A stretch of DNA of 64,000 bases, from contig NZ_AUZM01000003.1 in assembly GCF_000478195.2 (NCBI RefSeq), positions 1 through 64,000 on the forward strand, given 5' to 3'. The position numbers and the translations under genes were made by a program. This DNA comes from Lyngbya aestuarii BL J. Lineage in GTDB: Bacteria > Cyanobacteriota > Cyanobacteriia > Cyanobacteriales > Microcoleaceae. The first letter of the stretch is position 1. Each line of letters opens with the position of its first letter. Below the pieces are notes generated by a model, which ran no database searches, was not told where the DNA came from, and worked only from the letters and a program-made list of their open reading frames with translations. Shown here one piece after another: positions 3,835-17,322 of the stretch.

Positions 3835-5028
3835 TTAGGAAGGCTGCATAAAATTTAACTGCTCGTCTGTTTGTTCAAATGTACCCACTTCGACAGCAAC
3901 TTCGACGCCATTTTGCTCAAAAATCACAATGGGATCACTACCGACATTAAATTTCACTCGTTTAACTAATACCTGTCCATTGGCGATCCGTTGTCCGACA
4001 CTCACATAACGACTGGTGGGTTCAGTGGGGGCTTTTAAAATAATTCGGGTTTCGTCACCCACTTGCATCACACCTGTGACTGAAATGGCTTTGGCAATCT
4101 CAATTGAAGGCGGAGGAGGAAGGACAGGGGCAGGTGTTGTCGGGGCAGGTGTTGTCGGTGCAGGTGTTGTCGGTGCAAGTGCTGTCGGTGGAGGTGTGGG
4201 AGGAGCATTCGGATCACGCCATCGGGGTAGGGGTTCAGTTACAGGCAACTCGGGTAAGGTCGGCACTTGAGCCACAGTCAAATTCGGAATTTGGGGAGGT
4301 TTTGGAGGGGATGGAGCTTGAGGAGGCGAGGGTTGAGCTTGTCTGCCTGGTGGTTGTCGGGGCCCTATGGGTGTTGTGCCTGGGGTCGCTTGCTGAGTTC
4401 CGGCTTGAGGTGGACGTTGAGCGACTGGGAGTTCGGGAAGGGAAGGCACTTGTCGGGGAGAAAGGTTAGGAGAAGCAGTTCCTTGACCTTGATTTCCATT
4501 TGTCGTTTGTGCTTGGGCGGCAGCAACCGTCCACTGAGGAGGGACTGCGGCAACCGGAACATCTGGAATCGTCGGGACTTCTCGGGCAGTAAGATTTAGA
4601 GACTCTGCGGCTTCTTCTGGATCTGGAGTTCGCTGAACAATCTGAGGGGTGAGTACACCAAACGGATCGCTCACAGATTGATTCGGTACTCCTGCGGGTG
4701 CTACGGCAGTAGCGTTTCCATTGGTACTCCCTTTAAGCTGAAGCAATCGTTCTTCGGGTTTGGTAGACTGAATCAAACCTGCTCTGGCAGCAGTTTCTTC
4801 TTTTTGCTGTTCGACTAAAGGTTCTTCAAATGCTCCTTTTTGGGGGTCTTCGGCGGTTTCTTGTTCGTCTGTTTGTTCGGTTCCTTCTGTTGCTGTTTCG
4901 GTTTCGGCGGGTGAGCTTTCTGCTGAGGGAGTTTCTGTTGTCGGTTCACTCCCTTGTTCTTGAGAACCACATCCACCCGTCCAAATTGTCAACAATCCTA
5001 ATGCGACCACTAACCATATTTTACGCAT
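3835..5028 (-). CDS. Proline-rich lipoprotein with a C-terminal PilP-like domain
   Basis: 397 residues from ATG 5028, chosen because AGGGA lies 8 nt upstream; a GTG at 5094 is in frame but has no such site. The N-terminus MRKIWLVVALGLLTIWTGGC is a lipoprotein signal with the lipobox ending in Cys. A long acidic then Pro/Gln/Thr-rich linker follows, with APTTPAPTTPAP repeats near residues 295-315. The last about 85 residues (from IEIAKAISVTGVM through VGDETRIILKAP to VAVEVG) form a compact beta-rich domain resembling PilP-type pilus proteins, but this match is by eye only. It is likely anchored in a membrane and spans the periplasm. Confidence 0.65.
   Translation of the reverse strand: MRKIWLVVALGLLTIWTGGCGSQEQGSEPTTETPSAESSPAETETATEGTEQTDEQETAEDPQKGAFEEPLVEQQKEETAARAGLIQSTKPEERLLQLKGSTNGNATAVAPAGVPNQSVSDPFGVLTPQIVQRTPDPEEAAESLNLTAREVPTIPDVPVAAVPPQWTVAAAQAQTTNGNQGQGTASPNLSPRQVPSLPELPVAQRPPQAGTQQATPGTTPIGPRQPPGRQAQPSPPQAPSPPKPPQIPNLTVAQVPTLPELPVTEPLPRWRDPNAPPTPPPTALAPTTPAPTTPAPTTPAPVLPPPPSIEIAKAISVTGVMQVGDETRIILKAPTEPTSRYVSVGQRIANGQVLVKRVKFNVGSDPIVIFEQNGVEVAVEVGTFEQTDEQLNFMQPS
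4118..4195 (-). repeat. Tandem repeat encoding TPAPT units
   Basis: A 15-bp unit reading approximately GTTGTCGGTGCAGGT on the plus strand repeats about four times with point changes. On the coding strand it gives the PAPTT repeats of the lipoprotein linker. Confidence 0.7.
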
Positions 5029-5094
5029 TGCCCGTCCCTGAAACACGTTCGATAATAATTTTAAGGATAGCCAAAGTCTAACCGATTCAGCCAC

Positions 5095-5420
5095 TTAGTC
5101 ACAGTTCTCCGGGAGCTTGCATCCCGAAGCTGCTGTAACCGTTGGTCAATTTATAGCAATTTACCGAAACTTTTCTCAGATTAAATCACCAAGGGGGGGA
5201 TCGGGAGTCTCGGACTGGAGAGATGCCCACAACTCAATCGGTTTGATTGGCAATGGAATTAGATTGGCATAGCTGAAAGCTCAATATTCAAGCATTGAGT
5301 CTTGAGTAGAGTTCTATTTCTCCTAACTGAAAACCATCCATGACTGCTATCCTAGCTAACGGGTAACTGATATCTGTGATCTCTTTTGTGATCAATGAGT
5401 CAGCACAAGTCTAGACGCCG
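5095..5420. other. Intergenic region between the lipoprotein gene and the HTH-like remnant
   Basis: I see no gene, tRNA or strong terminator here. It should contain the promoter of the leftward lipoprotein gene. A G-run (AAGGGGGGGATCGGG near 5190) is the only striking local feature. Confidence 0.4.
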
Positions 5421-5537
5421 ATGAGTGTTGATGCAAAAACAATCGCTAAGGTTTTAGACGGTCAAATCGCGATTGATAAACGAACGCTACAACGCTACTT
5501 TTCTTGCTTGAATTTAGGAAAAACTGGCAGGGGCTAA
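5421..5537 (+). pseudogene. Short helical fragment resembling an N-terminal HTH-like domain (possible gene remnant)
   Basis: A 38-codon frame from ATG 5421 reads MSVDAKTIAKVLDGQIAIDK then RTLQRYFSCLNLGK and stops at 5535-5537, inside the 3' end of aroH on the other strand. The pattern of a short helix, then IDKRTLQRYF, resembles the N-terminal domain in many large cyanobacterial proteins, where it is followed by ATPase or WD40 parts. Here nothing follows. It may be the remains of a deleted gene or chance. Confidence 0.3.
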
Positions 5538-5903
5538 ACTCCAATCTGGCCGTAAATCTTTCGCACCCCGGAGATAAGGATGATGAACCTTCGTTTGACC
5601 GGCGGGTAAATTGACATGAACCAAAAACCGAATACACCGTTCTAAACTTCCCGGAACGTGCATCTGTTGAACATCCAGTAAGGGAACATTATCCCACTGG
5701 GGACGTTGACGAGCAATAGCAGCCGGAAACGTAGCATCAAGATCGCGAGTTGCTGTAAAGGTTGTACTGATGATCTGTTCAGGTTTAAGATGATTTCGGG
5801 TTTCGAGTTCATCTAGTAGTTCTGTCACCGCTTCCGCGATCGCTTCGATAGAATTTTCCGAAACGGTTGTTGCTCCACGTATTGCTCGTACACGCCACTC
5901 CAC
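5514..5903 (-). CDS. aroH: Chorismate mutase, AroH class
   Basis: 129 residues from GTG 5903. GGAGGA lies 7 nt upstream of this GTG, and the first residues VEWRVRAIRGATT match the family N-terminus, so the longer frame back to 6059 is rejected. The enzyme converts chorismate to prephenate for Phe and Tyr synthesis. Visible family features are RAIRGATTVSENS (active-site Arg), the helix AIAEAVTELLDEL, TATRDLDATFPA, and HVPGSLERCIRFLVHVN with the second active-site Arg. The C-terminus has HPYLRGAKDLRPD. The length equals that of the B. subtilis AroH type. It follows sppA by 109 nt on the same strand. Confidence 0.93.
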   Translation of the reverse strand: MEWRVRAIRGATTVSENSIEAIAEAVTELLDELETRNHLKPEQIISTTFTATRDLDATFPAAIARQRPQWDNVPLLDVQQMHVPGSLERCIRFLVHVNLPAGQTKVHHPYLRGAKDLRPDWSLAPASFS

Positions 5904-6012
5904 GAAAAGTCCTCCAGTTTTCCTCAATTGTGCATTGTTGGTTGAAATGTTCAATGAGAACGTTTCATCTGAATCAATAGCATTTGCTATTTGACTCCAG
6001 TTTACTGCAATT

Positions 6013-6834
6013 TTAGGGTCGATATAACCATAACGGTAGACCACTGGTAGACAGCTCAAATTCTAGCCAATTTTTAGCCGACACTAATCGGGAAGTCTCT
6101 AAATTATTATTACTTAAGACTCGACTCACCAAAGATTTTGGTTTTTCTAAAGTATCGCATTCTGTTTTATCGGGGTCAAGGTTGACCAATTCAGCCGCCC
6201 AACACCGGGCTTCTTCTTCCGTCCCTAAACGATCAATTACGCCCAAATCTAAAGCCTGTTCTCCGGTAAAGATGCGACCATCTGCAAAGCTTCTGACTGC
6301 GGTTTCTTCTAAGTTGCGAGACTCAGCAACGGTGATCACAAATTGATGATAACTGGTATCGATCAATTCTTGCAAAATTTGTTTTTCAGGATCTGTGAGT
6401 TGTCGATCAAACGCCAAAATATCTTTATAAGGGCCAGACTTGATCACCTTAAACGATACCCCAACTTTATCTAATAAACGTTCAATGTTGTTTCCGCGTA
6501 TAATCACCCCAATACTTCCGGTAATGGTGCCTGGGTTCGCCATGATGTGTTGGGCGCCCATGCCAATATAAACTCCTCCAGATGCGGAAATATTACCAAA
6601 ACTGGCGACAATTTTAAGTTTATCTTGTAACTTTTTCAGAGCGCTATAGATTTCTTGGGAATCTGCAACCGTTCCACCGGGACTATCTATCCGCAACAAC
6701 AAAGCTGGATATTTACGGTCTTCGATGGTTTTTAGGGCTTCAAGAACCCGTTTTCGAGTGTCACTAGCGATTACACCCGTAATTTCAATGCGAGCAATTT
6801 GTTTGCGATATCGCGGTTTGAATGGCCAGATCAT
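6013..6834 (-). CDS. sppA: Signal peptide peptidase SppA (short form)
   Basis: 273 residues from ATG 6834. SppA is a membrane-associated serine protease that degrades cleaved signal peptides; the family uses a Ser/Lys dyad. The sequence shows LLLRIDSPGGTVADSQEIY, then SASGGVYIGMGA with the nucleophile Ser, then NPGTITGSIGVI, and SGPYKDI with the candidate Lys. The length fits the single-domain form. The N-terminus MIWPFKPRYRKQIARIEI lacks an obvious membrane segment, which is unusual for bacterial SppA but common in cyanobacterial short forms. aroH follows downstream. Confidence 0.92.
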   Translation of the reverse strand: MIWPFKPRYRKQIARIEITGVIASDTRKRVLEALKTIEDRKYPALLLRIDSPGGTVADSQEIYSALKKLQDKLKIVASFGNISASGGVYIGMGAQHIMANPGTITGSIGVIIRGNNIERLLDKVGVSFKVIKSGPYKDILAFDRQLTDPEKQILQELIDTSYHQFVITVAESRNLEETAVRSFADGRIFTGEQALDLGVIDRLGTEEEARCWAAELVNLDPDKTECDTLEKPKSLVSRVLSNNNLETSRLVSAKNWLEFELSTSGLPLWLYRP

Positions 6835-7108
6835 GTGTCATCTAGAAGGGGCTTTATCTATATAAATAGAATCTATTATCTTATCACATTTTAGTAGGAT
6901 AGACAAATAAAAAGTTAGGCAGTCGGGGGAGAAACTGTTTCCTGTATAGGCAATCTGTAAAACTGTTCACTGGTCAGTGCCAACACTGTTCCCCGTTACC
7001 TAGACATCATCTCCCGAACTCGTTATGATTGTAAAGATAATTTAACCAAACAAAAACCAACTAATCTTTGTTGTTGAAAATTTAGCAAAATCTTTGGGAG
7101 AAAGCTGA

Positions 7109-8182
7109 ATGCAGCTTAAACAGACCGATATTAAATTACCTTTTCAATCTCTATTTTTAATCGCCCCGTTTTTTCTTTGGGGAACCGCAATGGTTGCCAT
7201 GAAGGGCGTTCTGCCTCAGACTACTCCTTTGTTTGTAGCAGGTGTGCGTTTAGTTCCAGCCGGTTTACTCATACTACTATTTACGACCCTACAAGGTAGA
7301 CCTCAACCCAAAAGTTGGAAAGCCTGGTTGTGGATCAGTATATTCGCTTTAGTGGATGGGGCATTATTTCAAGGATTTCTCGCCGAAGGACTAGAGAGAA
7401 CCGGGGCGGGGTTAGGTTCAGTGATGATCGACTCTCAACCTCTGGCTGTAGCTATTTTATCCCTGTGGCTGTTTCAAGATAAAATCGGGTTTTGGGGTTG
7501 GTTGGGTCTTGTGATTGGTGTCGGTGGAATTAGTTTAATTGGCTTACCTGATGAACTGATTTTAAACGGATTTAACCTCGAAACCGCAGGCATGGCATGG
7601 GGAGTGGATCATTTATTCCAAAGCGGTGAATGGTTAATGCTACTCGCCTCTCTGTCCATGGCTGTTGGTACCGTGTTAGTGCGTTGGGTGTGTCGCCATT
7701 GTGATCCTGTTGTCGCCACAGGTTGGCACATGATCATCGGCGGTTTACCCCTATTTGCCCTTTCTGGCGGTCTAGAGTCCGAACAATGGATACATTTAGG
7801 GGGGGCTGACTGGCTGGCTTTAGCTTACTCTACTGTATTTGGGAGTGCGATCGCCTATGCTTTGTTCTTCTATTTTGCCTCTAGCGGTTCATTAACGAGT
7901 TTAAGTTCCTTAACCTTTTTGACACCTGTGTTTGCATTGTTGTTTGGAAATCTGTTTTTAGGAGAAGTCCTTAGTCCGTTACAATCATTAGGGGTTGGTT
8001 TAACGTTGGTCAGTATTTACCTGGTCAATCAGCGCGACACCTTAGCAGAAAAGCTCAAATTCAAGCGTTCTGACGCTCAAGGGTTAAATTCCCCGAGCGA
8101 GCAACAGCTAAACTCATCGGAAGAAAAGCCGTTTGAGATCCCTGTAAAGGTGCGTCTGAGCGAACCCGAACCCAAGCTTTAA
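7109..8182 (+). CDS. EamA/DMT-family transporter
   Basis: 357 residues from ATG 7109, with GGGAGAAAG just upstream. Two EamA halves of about five membrane helices each are visible: the first from FLIAPFFLWGTAMVAMKGVL to WLGLVIGVGGISLIG, the second from WLMLLASLSMAVGTVLVRW to LGVGLTLVSIYLVNQ. A hydrophilic tail of about 45 residues follows. The family exports small metabolites; the substrate cannot be told. It is 20 nt upstream of treZ on the same strand and is probably in the same operon, so a link to sugar or osmolyte export is possible but unproven. Confidence 0.88.
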   Translation: MQLKQTDIKLPFQSLFLIAPFFLWGTAMVAMKGVLPQTTPLFVAGVRLVPAGLLILLFTTLQGRPQPKSWKAWLWISIFALVDGALFQGFLAEGLERTGAGLGSVMIDSQPLAVAILSLWLFQDKIGFWGWLGLVIGVGGISLIGLPDELILNGFNLETAGMAWGVDHLFQSGEWLMLLASLSMAVGTVLVRWVCRHCDPVVATGWHMIIGGLPLFALSGGLESEQWIHLGGADWLALAYSTVFGSAIAYALFFYFASSGSLTSLSSLTFLTPVFALLFGNLFLGEVLSPLQSLGVGLTLVSIYLVNQRDTLAEKLKFKRSDAQGLNSPSEQQLNSSEEKPFEIPVKVRLSEPEPKL

Positions 8183-8202
8183 TCAGGAGAAGCAACAAAC
8201 CT

Positions 8203-10026
8203 ATGAAAGTTGGTGCAAATTATCTGGGTGATGGTCGCTGTGAATTTATTGTTTGGGCGCCGTTACGACAACAAGTTTCTGTTGAGATTTTAACTCCCCA
8301 AAAACGACTTCTGTCGATGGAAAAAGATGACCAAGGCTATTGGCGTCTCACCGCTACAGAGGTTTCCCCTGGAAGTCGTTATCAGTTTCAACTCGATGGG
8401 GAGATTACAAGGCCAGATCCCGCTTCTCACTATCAACCGGATGATGTTCATAAACCTTCGGCGGTTGTTGATCATGGGGCGTTTACTTGGACAGATAGCA
8501 ACTGGCAAACGATCCCGTTAGAAGATTTAATTATCTATGAACTTCATGTGGGAACATTCACCTCTGAAGGCACGTTTGAAGCCATTATTGATCGGATTCC
8601 AGACCTGTTGGAAATGGGCATCAACACCATTGAAATTATGCCTGTGGCGCAATTTCCGGGCAATCGTAACTGGGGTTACGATGGCGTTTATCCCTACGGT
8701 GTACAGGCATCCTACGGCGGCCCGGAGGGGTTAAAACGGTTGGTGGATGCTTGCCATCAACGGGGAATGATGGTGGTTCTGGATGTGGTTTACAACCACT
8801 TAGGGCCGGAAGGGAATTATACGTCGGATTTTGGCCCCTACTTTACCGGAAAATATAACACGCCTTGGGGACGGGCGATTAATTTTGATGATGCTTATAG
8901 TCCGGGTGTGCGGAATTTCTTTATTGAAAATGTACTCTATTGGCTTGGTGATTATCACATTGATGGGTTGCGTTTGGATGCGGTTCATGCGATTTATGAC
9001 TTTGGTGCCAAGCATATTTTAGAGGAAATGGCCGATGAAACAAAGGCGTTATCCGAACAGCTAGGACGTCCGTTTTATTTGATCGCTGAAAGTGACCTGA
9101 ATGATGTCAGAATTATTAAACCCAAAGAAGTGGGTGGATATGGGTTAGAGGGTCAATGGAGTGATGATTTTCACCACTGTGTTCATACCTTATTAACCGG
9201 AGAAAAAGCAGGATATTATTTAGATTTTGGGAAGTGTGAACTGTTAGAAAGAACGCTGAAAGAAGGGTTTGCTTATTCCTGGCATTATTCGGCAAATCGT
9301 CAGCGCTATCATGGTAACTTTGCAGGCGATCGCCCCGCGTCTCAGTTTGTGGTTTGTATTCAAAATCACGACCAAGTGGGAAACCGGATGTTAGGGGAAA
9401 GAATCAGTCAACTTTCTTCGTTTGAAGCCCTAAAATTGGGTGCTGCAACGCTGCTTTTATCACCGTTTGTTCCGATGTTATTTATGGGAGAAGAATACGG
9501 AGAAGAATCACCTTTTGCTTACTTTATTAGTCATTCTGATCCGGGCTTAGTTGAAGCGGTCAGAAAAGGACGAAAAGAGGAATTTGCAGCTTTTCATATA
9601 GAGGGAGAAACCCCCGATCCTCAAAGTCCAGAAATTTTCAAAGATTGTGTCTTAAAATGGCATTTACGAACCGAAGGAAAACATAAAGTTTTGCTTGATT
9701 TTTATCGAGAATTGATTCAACTTCGACGACAAATTCCGGCTTTGAAAAACCTGAGTTTCCAGGATCAAGAAGTCCAGAGTTGGGAAACGGAAAAAATCCT
9801 CTCTATCCGCAGATGGAGTCAAGATAGTCAAGTTCTTTGTATACTGAATTTTAACTCTGAAGCGGTGACTTCTGAGGCCATCAGTATAGAAGGAAATTGG
9901 CAGAAACGGTTAGATTCTGCGGATCAGCAATGGATGGGAAGTGGATCGAGTTTACCAGAGACTCTGAGTGCATCCCAACCGTTAACACTGGCTCCTGAAA
10001 GTTGTGTGCTTTACGAAAGAAAGTAA
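8203..10026 (+). CDS. treZ: Malto-oligosyltrehalose trehalohydrolase (TreZ)
   Basis: 607 residues from ATG 8203, with AGGAGA 12 nt upstream. It releases trehalose from maltooligosyl-trehalose made by TreY. An N-terminal E-set domain (FIVWAPLRQQVSVEIL) precedes a GH13 barrel. Catalytic residues are visible: Asp259 in GLRLDAVHA, Glu296 in IAESDLND and Asp390 in IQNHDQVGNR. The C-terminal beta domain ends at LAPESCVLYERK. The length matches the family (about 600). It lies between the transporter (20 nt) and treY (55 nt), all on one strand. Confidence 0.96.
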   Translation: MKVGANYLGDGRCEFIVWAPLRQQVSVEILTPQKRLLSMEKDDQGYWRLTATEVSPGSRYQFQLDGEITRPDPASHYQPDDVHKPSAVVDHGAFTWTDSNWQTIPLEDLIIYELHVGTFTSEGTFEAIIDRIPDLLEMGINTIEIMPVAQFPGNRNWGYDGVYPYGVQASYGGPEGLKRLVDACHQRGMMVVLDVVYNHLGPEGNYTSDFGPYFTGKYNTPWGRAINFDDAYSPGVRNFFIENVLYWLGDYHIDGLRLDAVHAIYDFGAKHILEEMADETKALSEQLGRPFYLIAESDLNDVRIIKPKEVGGYGLEGQWSDDFHHCVHTLLTGEKAGYYLDFGKCELLERTLKEGFAYSWHYSANRQRYHGNFAGDRPASQFVVCIQNHDQVGNRMLGERISQLSSFEALKLGAATLLLSPFVPMLFMGEEYGEESPFAYFISHSDPGLVEAVRKGRKEEFAAFHIEGETPDPQSPEIFKDCVLKWHLRTEGKHKVLLDFYRELIQLRRQIPALKNLSFQDQEVQSWETEKILSIRRWSQDSQVLCILNFNSEAVTSEAISIEGNWQKRLDSADQQWMGSGSSLPETLSASQPLTLAPESCVLYERK

Positions 10027-13019: not shown

Positions 13020-16000
13020 GTTTCAATCCCTCATAGGGATTCTTGTTAATTGCAATCTGTGTAAATTTCAAGTTCGTTTTCGTAATTGGTTTCAATCCCT
13101 CATAGGGATTATTGTTAATTGCAACCGGACATTCACCAATATAAGAATCTTTGGTAATTCGTTTCAATCCCTCATAGGGATTTTTGTTAATTGCAATAAT
13201 TTTAAGATTTCAGCTTCAGAGTATCCATAGTGGTTTCAATCCCTCATAGGGATTTTTGTTAATTGCAATGACTGAAACAGATGTTTCCGAAGTTGGTGCA
13301 AAAATGGCGTTTCAATCCCTCATAGGGATTTTTGTTAATTGCAATTATTTAGATGATAAAGGTGGCTATGGTTATTTGGGTTTCAATCCCTCATAGGGAT
13401 TTTTGTTAATTGCAATTTGAGTTTTTAGAAGATTTAATGGCTTGCCTGCTGTTTCAATCCCTCATAGGGATTTTTGTTAATTGCAATCAATATCGTAAGT
13501 TGTTTTCTGTTGATAGTCCCGTTTCAATCCCTCATAGGGATTTTTGTTAATTGCAATTCAGAAACACCTTCCTCTATTTCTTCGGGGTATTCGTTTCAAT
13601 CCCTCATAGGGATTTTTGTTAATTGCAATGTTCAGAGGAGATGGTTGAATACCTGAAGAAAGTGTTTCAATCCCTCATAGGGATTTTTGTTAATTGCAAT
13701 TTGTTGTACTCTCTATCCCCTTTTGCCTGTGCTTCCGTTTCAATCCCTCATAGGGATTTTTGTTAATTGCAATCAGGTGCCACCGGGGCAAAAGGAGATA
13801 AAGGCGCGTTTCAATCCCTCATAGGGATTTTTGTTAATTGCAATACTTACTTGCCTTGGAGTTTCAAACTCATTTATTTTGTTTCAATCCCTCATAGGGA
13901 TTATTGTTAATTGCAACCGGATTAGTTTATCCATACGAACAATATTCGGACGTTTCAATCCCTCATAGGGATTATTGTTAATTGCAACAGCTCAACAATT
14001 GGGGTTGCAACTCAGCGATTCTCGTTTCAATCCCTCATAGGGATTCTTGTTAATTGCAACTAGCTGTGGCGTTGTGTGTGGTTAATATTCAACTCGTTTC
14101 AATCCCTCATAGGGATTCTTGTTAATTGCAACTTTAAAAAGAGGGGGAATGTTCCCCCAGTATGATGAGTTTCAATCCCTCATAGGGATTCTTGTTAAAC
14201 TTTACTATCTTGATCCCCGCTTAAACTTATTGTACTAGTTTCAATCCCTCATAGGGATTCTTGTTAATTGCAACAAGAATTCGCGGAACAGGAAAAAAGG
14301 GAGGAATCTAGTTTCAATCCCTCATAGGGATTCTTGTTAATTGCAACAAGACCTTCGAGGAAGACTGGCTTGAATATTGTAGTTTCAATCCCTCATAGGG
14401 ATTCTTGTTAATTGCAACTTGCAACTTGCGATCGCAATTATCAGTTACTTTCCCCTAGGTTTCAATCCCTCATAGGGATTCTTGTTAATTGCAACTGCAA
14501 TTTCTTGAAGTGGAATAAATCTACTCAAGGTTTCAATCCCTCATAGGGATTCTTGTTAATTGCAACCATGTCGTTCCCGGTGGCTGGCGACTGTTCAGCC
14601 TCTAAAGTTTCAATCCCTCATAGGGATTCTTGTTAATTGCAACGGATGCAGGCGAAGATGTTCTTGCGATCACTTCGGCGTTTCAATCCCTCATAGGGAT
14701 TCTTGTTAATTGCAACCGGCGTGTGTCACCAAAAGATAAATCCTCAGCGTTCCGGTTGTTTCAATCCCTCGTAGGGATTCTTGTTAATTGCAATTAAGCA
14801 AGGCTAGACGATAATCAAGCTCATCAACGTTTCAATCCCTCGTAGGGATTCTTGTTAATTGCAATGGGTAGCCGTCAACTGCAAGAGCATTGATGCCAAG
14901 TTTCAATCCCTCGTAGGGATTCTTGTTAATTGCAATTCATTTATGGCAAACCGCCCAACTGCTATTAATCACTACAGCAGGTTTCAATCCCTCGTAGGGA
15001 TTCTTGTTAATTGCAATATTTTGTATGGTTCTGGAATCCCATTTAAAGAGTCGTTTCAATCCCTCGTAGGGATTCTTGTTAATTGCAATTTGAGGGGGGT
15101 TGCGGACAACGTTGTTTATGAGGGTTTCAATCCCTCATAGGGATTATTGTTAATTGCAATATTCGAGATCGCGGTGAGGCAATAAGTCAAATCGCCAAGT
15201 TTCAATCCCTCATAGGGATTATTGTTAATTGCAATGTTTATTCCAGAACTCTGGAATTTAGTCATCAAATCTGTTTCAATCCCTCATAGGGATTATTGTT
15301 AATTGCAATCGTCCGCCTATTACTCAGAGAGGGTTGAATGCAGCGTTTCAATCCCTCATAGGGATTATTGTTAATTGCAATTATCCAGCCTCGATTAGCT
15401 GATTAACCGCTTCAATTTTATCTGGAGAGTTTCAATCCCTCATAGGGATTATTGTTAATTGCAATTTGTGTTTCCTCTTTGGCATAGTCACTCATGCTAG
15501 TTTCAATCCCTCATAGGGATTATTGTTAATTGCAATAGGCGGATGGGTCATCCCTAAACCTCTAAAATGGGATGTTTCAATCCCTCATAGGGATTATTGT
15601 TAATTGCAATCAGAAAATTTTTATCCAAGCATAGAACTTTACAAGTTTCAATCCCTCATAGGGATTATTGTTAATTGCAACTGGAAAGTATTCAATAATT
15701 CTTAGTGAAAACTTAGTTTTTGCTTTGTTTCAATCCCTCATAGGGATTCTTGTTAATTGCAACAGGCTTTTTCTATCTGATTAAAGAAGTTTGCGGTTTC
15801 AATCCCTCATAGGGATTCTTGTTAATTGCAACTACGGCTTTACAGTTTGAAAACCCAGGTGATTCTTGGGGGTTTCAATCCCTCATAGGGATTCTTGTTA
15901 ATTGCAACTTTAACAAACTCATCATTGGATTTGGAGAGCAGTCAACGGTTTCAATCCCTCATAGGGATTCTTGTTAATTGCAACTATTTCGGAGTTCCAA

Positions 16001-17081
16001 AGGATGTGGGCCTGTAAAACCTTGTTTCAATCCCTCATAGGGATTCTTGTTAATTGCAACGAAACCATAATATCGGGCGTTGGTATAGTTCCAGTTTCAA
16101 TCCCTCATAGGGATTCTTGTTAATTGCAACAATGGAGGACAGGGGGACAGTTTATAAGTATCCCACGTTTCAATCCCTCATAGGGATTCTTGTTAATTGC
16201 AACAGTTTGCACTCCAGCAACCGCAGAGTCAACTCCAGTTTCAATCCCTCATAGGGATTCTTGTTAATTGCAACGATTCGGATTGGGAACAACCATTTAC
16301 GCCAAAGCAAATGTTTCAATCCCTCATAGGGATTCTTGTTAATTGCAACTTTTACTCTAGTAGTAGAGTAATTTTCCTTGAAATAATGTTTCAATCCCTC
16401 ATAGGGATTCTTGTTAATTGCAACGATATTTTAATTAATGGAAGGTAAGGATTAAAAGTCTGTGTTTCAATCCCTCATAGGGATTCTTGTTAATTGCAAC
16501 CGATAGCCATTTTAATTTCAGGTAGATTAGCCATGTTTCAATCCCTCATAGGGATTCTTGTTAATTGCAACAATAGAATCATAAAGATTAATCAAAGTAT
16601 TTGCAAAGTTTCAATCCCTCATAGGGATTCTTGTTAATTGCAACACGCACAAGGAAGTTCATACGGCTCCCTCCTACTCTGGTTTCAATCCCTCATAGGG
16701 ATTCTTGTTAATTGCAACTGGTATCACTAGGAATCTTTTGTAATGGATTCTTTGTTTCAATCCCTCATAGGGATTCTTGTTAATTGCAACAATCGCTTCG
16801 CAGTGTACTGAATCTGAATCAATCGGTTTCAATCCCTCATAGGGATTCTTGTTAATTGCAACAAAGCATTTGTTTCCGAATGGTGTCCCCCTGCAAGTTT
16901 CAATCCCTCATAGGGATTCTTGTTAATTGCAACCATCAGTTGCAGAAACGCTGTTACAGATGGATGCGTTTCAATCCCTCATAGGGATTCTTGTTAATTG
17001 CAACTACCATGTCGCAATTTGCACCGCCTAAAATTTCTAGAGCCGTTTCAATCCCTCATAGGGATTCTTGTTAATTGCAAC
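13020..17081 (-). CRISPR. CRISPR array, 56 repeats and 55 spacers, no cas genes in the window
   Basis: The 37-nt repeat on the plus strand begins GTTTCAATCCCT and ends GTTAATTGCAAC. Its core AATCCCT-CAT-AGGGATT is a 7-bp stem with a 3-nt loop. Spacers are 32-47 nt, mostly 34-39. On the minus strand the repeat ends in ATTGAAAC, the usual 8-nt crRNA 5' tag, and a strong promoter lies at 17150-17178 facing left; transcription is therefore inferred to be leftward, with the leader on the right. Position 23 of the plus-strand repeat varies C/T/A, the last base varies C/T, and five repeats have CGT in the loop. These alleles come in blocks. The tag and repeat type resemble cyanobacterial type III or I-D arrays, but the subtype cannot be set without cas genes. 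Confidence 0.97.
14169..14200 (-). repeat. Variant CRISPR repeat with a 5-nt deletion
   Basis: The 17th repeat from the left is 32 nt. It matches the consensus up to GTTAA and then reads AC, so TTGCA is missing. All other repeats are 37 nt. Confidence 0.85.
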
Positions 17082-17322
17082 TGCGGCATCTTGAAACTCT
17101 TACTATATTCAGTTTTCGAGGTACAGTTGCGCCGGGTGCGACTAAAACTATAATACCGGATTTCCTCAGATCTGTCAAAAACGCTGAAACCCTTACACAG
17201 TGGGATGCGCCTACCTCTACACCAAAGCAACGACTGCAAACCCAGACAGCATAACTCCTCCAGCCATTGACAGCGATCGCGAAATTTTGAGACCCACCCT
17301 CGGGCGCAAAAAGAGGATGAAA
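17082..17322 (-). other. CRISPR leader region
   Basis: This 241-nt gap lies between the first transcribed repeat (ending at 17081) and the haloperoxidase stop codon. It is the expected leader position given the repeat orientation. It contains the promoter described separately, a GC-rich block (GCGCCGGGTGCG on the plus strand) between promoter and array, and a HIP1 site (GCGATCGC) near 17274. No credible gene is present. Confidence 0.75.
17150..17178 (-). promoter_or_regulatory. Consensus sigma-70-type promoter driving the CRISPR array
   Basis: On the minus strand TTGACA (17178-17173) is separated by 17 nt from TATTAT (17155-17150). Transcription would start near 17143, about 60 nt before the first repeat. 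Confidence 0.75.

Follow-up and report, generated by a model that had tools for sequence, protein, structure and literature searches.

The question raised by this locus is how one CRISPR array came to carry six repeat haplotypes arranged in nine uninterrupted blocks, with some haplotypes returning after they had been replaced. The array lies at positions 13020-17081 of the window (the whole stretch of DNA that was analysed, 64,000 nucleotides), on contig C3 of a draft genome of 6.86 Mb, 437 contigs and 3.26% contamination. It comprises 56 repeats (55 full and 1 truncated), all in the same orientation, and 55 spacers of 32-47 nt, none of which is duplicated. Rfam CRISPR-DR5 was found above threshold, on the minus strand, in all 55 full repeats, and zero chance matches are expected for the 36-mer repeat pattern.

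The repeats vary at sites 14 (A/G, which gives loop CAT or CGT), 23 (C/T/A) and 37 (C/T), and the combinations define the blocks listed in Table 1. The repeat counts and the nine blocks of the original prediction match the repeat listing exactly and, as it also claimed, the loop change (A14 to G) preserves the stem, the 7-bp AATCCCT/AGGGATT being intact in all six haplotypes. Two nested patterns are observed along the array, as the T/T block is flanked by A/C blocks, and the C/T-CGT and A/T blocks are together flanked by C/C blocks. Unit 37 (A/C) has site 23 as in its left neighbours and site 37 as in its right neighbours.

Table 1. Repeat blocks and leader of the array, from left to right, in window coordinates; haplotypes are given as the base at site 23/the base at site 37.
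Feature	Position	Strand	Basis
Unit 1, C/T, oldest	13020..13056	-	repeat listing + Rfam
Unit 2, A/C	13089..13125	-	repeat listing + Rfam
Units 3-12, T/T, 10 repeats	13161..13844	-	repeat listing + Rfam
Units 13-14, A/C, 2 repeats	13881..13988	-	repeat listing + Rfam
Units 15-24, C/C, 10 repeats (truncated unit 17 included)	14024..14716	-	repeat listing + Rfam
Truncated unit 17, 30 nt	14169..14198	-	repeat listing; below Rfam threshold
Units 25-29, C/T, + strand loop CGT, 5 repeats	14758..15089	-	repeat listing + Rfam
Units 30-36, A/T, 7 repeats	15124..15610	-	repeat listing; matches G239 array repeat
Unit 37, A/C, putative A/T x C/C hybrid make-up	15645..15681	-	repeat listing
Units 38-56, C/C, 19 repeats, youngest	15727..17081	-	repeat listing + Rfam
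Leader	17082..17270	-	leader similarity + promoter-like site

Direction of growth and supply of adaptation proteins

The blocks can be read as a history only if the growing end of the array is known. A leader motif is present beside the right end of the array and, at an equal offset from the last repeat, in arrays of other genomes with similar repeats, while none was found in the left flanks of any of them. Over about 200 bp, the leader is 84% identical to that of the array on contig C59; over 172 bp, its identity to the leader of the C8 type I-D array is about 70%. Additionally, a putative promoter (TTGACA-17-TATTAT, 11/12 matches) at 17178-17150 of the minus strand is directed into the array. 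The leader motif and the promoter-like site identify the right end as the growing one and, as the DR5 matches are on the minus strand, the transcript runs from right to left. With the leader on the right, the left blocks are the oldest and the C/C block of 19 repeats is the youngest; the polarised blocks of the original prediction, in which each change is kept as a boundary, are thus borne out.

There is no Cas1 on contig C3, and cas genes are absent both from the genes nearest to the array and from ten larger genes further off. By contrast, the type I-D array on contig C8 adjoins cas3d, cas10d, csc1, csc2, cas6, cas4 and cas1. The window array is a stand-alone array and a candidate for feeding in trans by the type I-D adaptation proteins of the genome, which probably serve it. 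The same genome has a third Cas1 gene at the end of contig C107 (L037, G000:C107), a 15-kb contig on which no array was found, and a uniform array of 33 repeats (L139, G000:C24:69001-84752) near a gene that matches Cas12u2 (E = 8e-152), which makes a type V-U locus in this genome probable as well.

The truncated unit 17 lacks the final 7 nt of the plus strand repeat, that is, those on the leader side, and the adjoining spacer (14199-14237, 39 nt) is of normal size. The two together (14169-14237) would fit a mis-sited integration, as a nick 7 nt inside the repeat is expected to leave the downstream copy short and the upstream copy intact, although a plain 7-nt deletion would have the same appearance.

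Repeat variation in this and other arrays

The block structure is far from random: 9 runs are observed, while 20,000 shuffles averaged 38.6 and never gave fewer than 27. Along the array there are two changes at site 14, six at site 23 and five at site 37, and these 13 changes fall on only 8 boundaries, whereas about 12 distinct boundaries would be expected if the sites were independent (P = 1.9e-4). In fact, two sites change together at 5 of the 8 boundaries, and no private single-unit variants are observed inside the long blocks. One might suspect site 37 of being a base derived from the spacer; this was rejected, as the site is constant within blocks and a real spacer-derived pattern looks different. 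Such a pattern is seen in L066 (G022:C190, array 4767-8576), where base 37 stays C through the 27 older units and differs from unit to unit among the 26 newer units (P about 4e-5), and where the copied repeat seems to have been shortened from 37 to 36 nt midway through the life of the array.

The simplest explanation would be that an array growing slowly acquires ordinary background mutations, each change of the template being inherited. Template changes do turn into blocks, as in the array L112, where there is one such step in 112 units. However, the total exposure of the older repeats is on average about 28 times that of the template, so private variants should outnumber blocks under this regime, and their absence refutes its simple form. 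Accordingly, at least 9 runs with at most 3 single units were obtained in at most 0.3% of the trials in which background mutation was simulated, and tuning the process to the observed number of runs produced too many single-unit variants (P = 0.003). With simulation P values of at most 0.003, we regard this explanation as extremely improbable.

A second proposal confines mutation to the template, at hot spots (sites 14, 23 and 37) and perhaps during the filling of gaps after insertion, with short intermediate blocks being deleted later; with their deletion, several changes would come to meet at one border. Template-only errors match the observed numbers of runs and of single units well in simulation, every change is indeed at one of three sites, all of them outside the stem, and arrays commonly undergo deletions between repeats (PMC11472070). 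Nevertheless, simulated mutation at independent sites never gave five two-site boundaries with 8-10 runs, and adding the loss of intermediate units helps only if that loss is heavy, the best case (P = 0.025) requiring 448-1000 past acquisitions for the 56 that are kept. Other points against this proposal are that haplotypes come back, that A/T re-forms a haplotype known elsewhere, and that no such mutation is seen in those sister arrays of the same cell that have related leaders. We therefore find it unlikely, although it should be kept in mind. The suggestion of the original prediction that mutation alone would not account for the array is upheld to the extent that mutation alone accounts poorly for the pattern.

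How unusual the array is was assessed in a survey of 80 Cas1 neighbourhoods of the taxonomic family and of other arrays, from which 71 arrays with 2446 repeats, including four of the same genome as the window array, were scored (the sums leave out the irregular-repeat arrays L041, L048 and L066). A single haplotype was found in 37 of the 71, and most of the others have a decayed end or one odd unit. Block switches, defined as changes between two blocks of at least 2 units each, occur at 6 of 2375 steps in the 71 arrays and at 4 of 55 in the window array (Fisher P = 4e-5, an optimistic value because the window array was picked for looking variable). Another array, L064 (G055:C221), has 43 repeats, two of which contain N and lie beside scrambled ends; these are probably assembly gaps inside the array.

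The tabulation of the other arrays of the genome, proposed as a check in the original prediction, yielded four, which are almost uniform. C8 has 44 repeats with one variant block of 4 units, C19 has 28 repeats with one of 2 units, C59 has 19 repeats with one odd unit, and the 33 repeats of C24 have zero variants. As these arrays are nearly uniform, the mosaic cannot be put down to a high mutation rate of the strain or to its adaptation machinery; it is a property of the window array and not of the strain.

The blocks in C8 and C19 (L035 and L036, G000:C8 and C19) differ by one base and are placed between common repeats, which is a return pattern on a small scale. Their position would agree with spacers having been inserted within the array, or segments duplicated, in which case the order of the blocks would not be an order in time. 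For types I-A and II-A, such internal insertion has been described in arrays with a damaged leader (PMC12638026). In the window array, by contrast, the leader looks intact, and insertion within an array does not produce changes at two sites; the duplication of segments was rejected, as there are zero repeated spacers. This explanation seems very improbable to us.

Proposed recombination with sister arrays and the search for donors

The multi-site switches, the return of haplotypes, the lack of private variants and the rarity of such patterns elsewhere lead us to infer recombination as the cause. In our preferred reading, which we hold to be probable but by no means certain, this is a stand-alone array, probably fed by the type I-D system, whose template haplotypes have been swapped whole by recombination with sister arrays. 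The array would grow at its right-hand end, next to the leader, where the repeat on the leader side is copied, and each block would be a run of acquisitions from one template haplotype. Instead of drifting by point mutation, the template would have been replaced as a unit, several times, through homologous recombination with sister arrays of other haplotypes, the putative donors being this locus as carried by other strains or by other copies of the chromosome. The two nested patterns would fit such replacement. Crossovers may have occurred in the leader-side flank and within repeats, and unit 37 would be the expected product of one A/T x C/C crossover inside a repeat. The single steps from A/T to A/C to C/C that had been pointed out previously are indeed seen, and one intra-repeat crossover gives the same result at this unit. 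On the other hand, a hybrid-like repeat is observed at one boundary only, and exchange between arrays is reportedly rare (Kupczok et al., as cited in PMC11472070). We give little credence to a related process in which the template repeat is rewritten whole by an active mechanism linked to acquisition, for instance gap repair from other repeats in trans.

The fusion of arrays suggested in the original prediction did not gain similar support. A search of genomes, viral contigs, phages and plasmids revealed neither a sister strain nor a donor array; within the window array, no spacers are common to different blocks, including at block borders, and there is no second leader. The collection searched for related arrays contains one genome of the genus and yielded no array from the same species. 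No further copies of the window repeats within 3 mismatches exist elsewhere in the genome, and the C/C, T/T and C/T versions are absent from the viral contigs and from the other sampled genomes. A search for arrays in the viral contigs found none, and three spacers among the youngest have no exact matches there. The other arrays of the genome, in their present form, were rejected as exchange partners: their repeats differ from those of the window array at many sites, and none of that kind is found here.

A/T, by contrast, is known from a genome of another family (G239), where an array of 19 units has it as its only full repeat, 18 of the units being exact while an older one carries a single change; it thus exists as a ready-made haplotype. 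This occurrence is suggestive and backs import, without amounting to proof, since it involves two variable sites with few states.

Were the contig an assembly chimera, in which arrays of several strains in one culture were joined at repeats, it would likewise show coherent blocks, switches at two sites and hybrid repeats; the contamination and the number of contigs in this draft are in keeping with this idea. However, all 55 full repeats sit together on a single contig, between one leader and one trailer flank, zero left-over repeats are present on other contigs, and little or no variation is seen in the four other arrays of the assembly. Moreover, joins at 37-nt repeats are unlikely given unique spacers and the usual word sizes. 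We consider a chimera improbable.

If the blocks are imports, as recombination with sister arrays would imply, repeat haplotypes would mark recombination breakpoints within a single array, without other strains being needed, and would offer a way to measure the frequency with which immune memory is exchanged between cells. The left-to-right order in such an array would then be no simple timeline of one lineage.

Comparison with known systems

Arrays carried by phages are a conceivable source of foreign blocks, and those of the Nostoc phages N1 and YongM have a repeat of a like general type, with 8 mismatches in 37. They were rejected as donors, as they are short, have other alleles and could have given zero blocks of the window array. 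With regard to satellite arrays of type I-D systems, the window array has its leader and the stem-handle of its repeat in common with the I-D array on contig C8, although the other half of the repeat differs and the window array has no adjacent cas genes.

In Sulfolobus, blocks of spacers and repeats in CRISPR loci are exchanged or deleted by recombination at repeats (PMC4390879). There, recombination was seen by comparing spacers across strains and loci, whereas for the window array it is deduced from repeat haplotypes in one genome. Mutations of CRISPR repeats have also been surveyed at large scale (Mitrofanov et al. 2026, as cited in PMC13383573); there, as here, repeat variants record the history of arrays. 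Most of the arrays in our own survey have one haplotype and terminal decay, while the window array has nine blocks with returns. It is an unusually rich case of an event whose kind is already known, and not a new kind of system.
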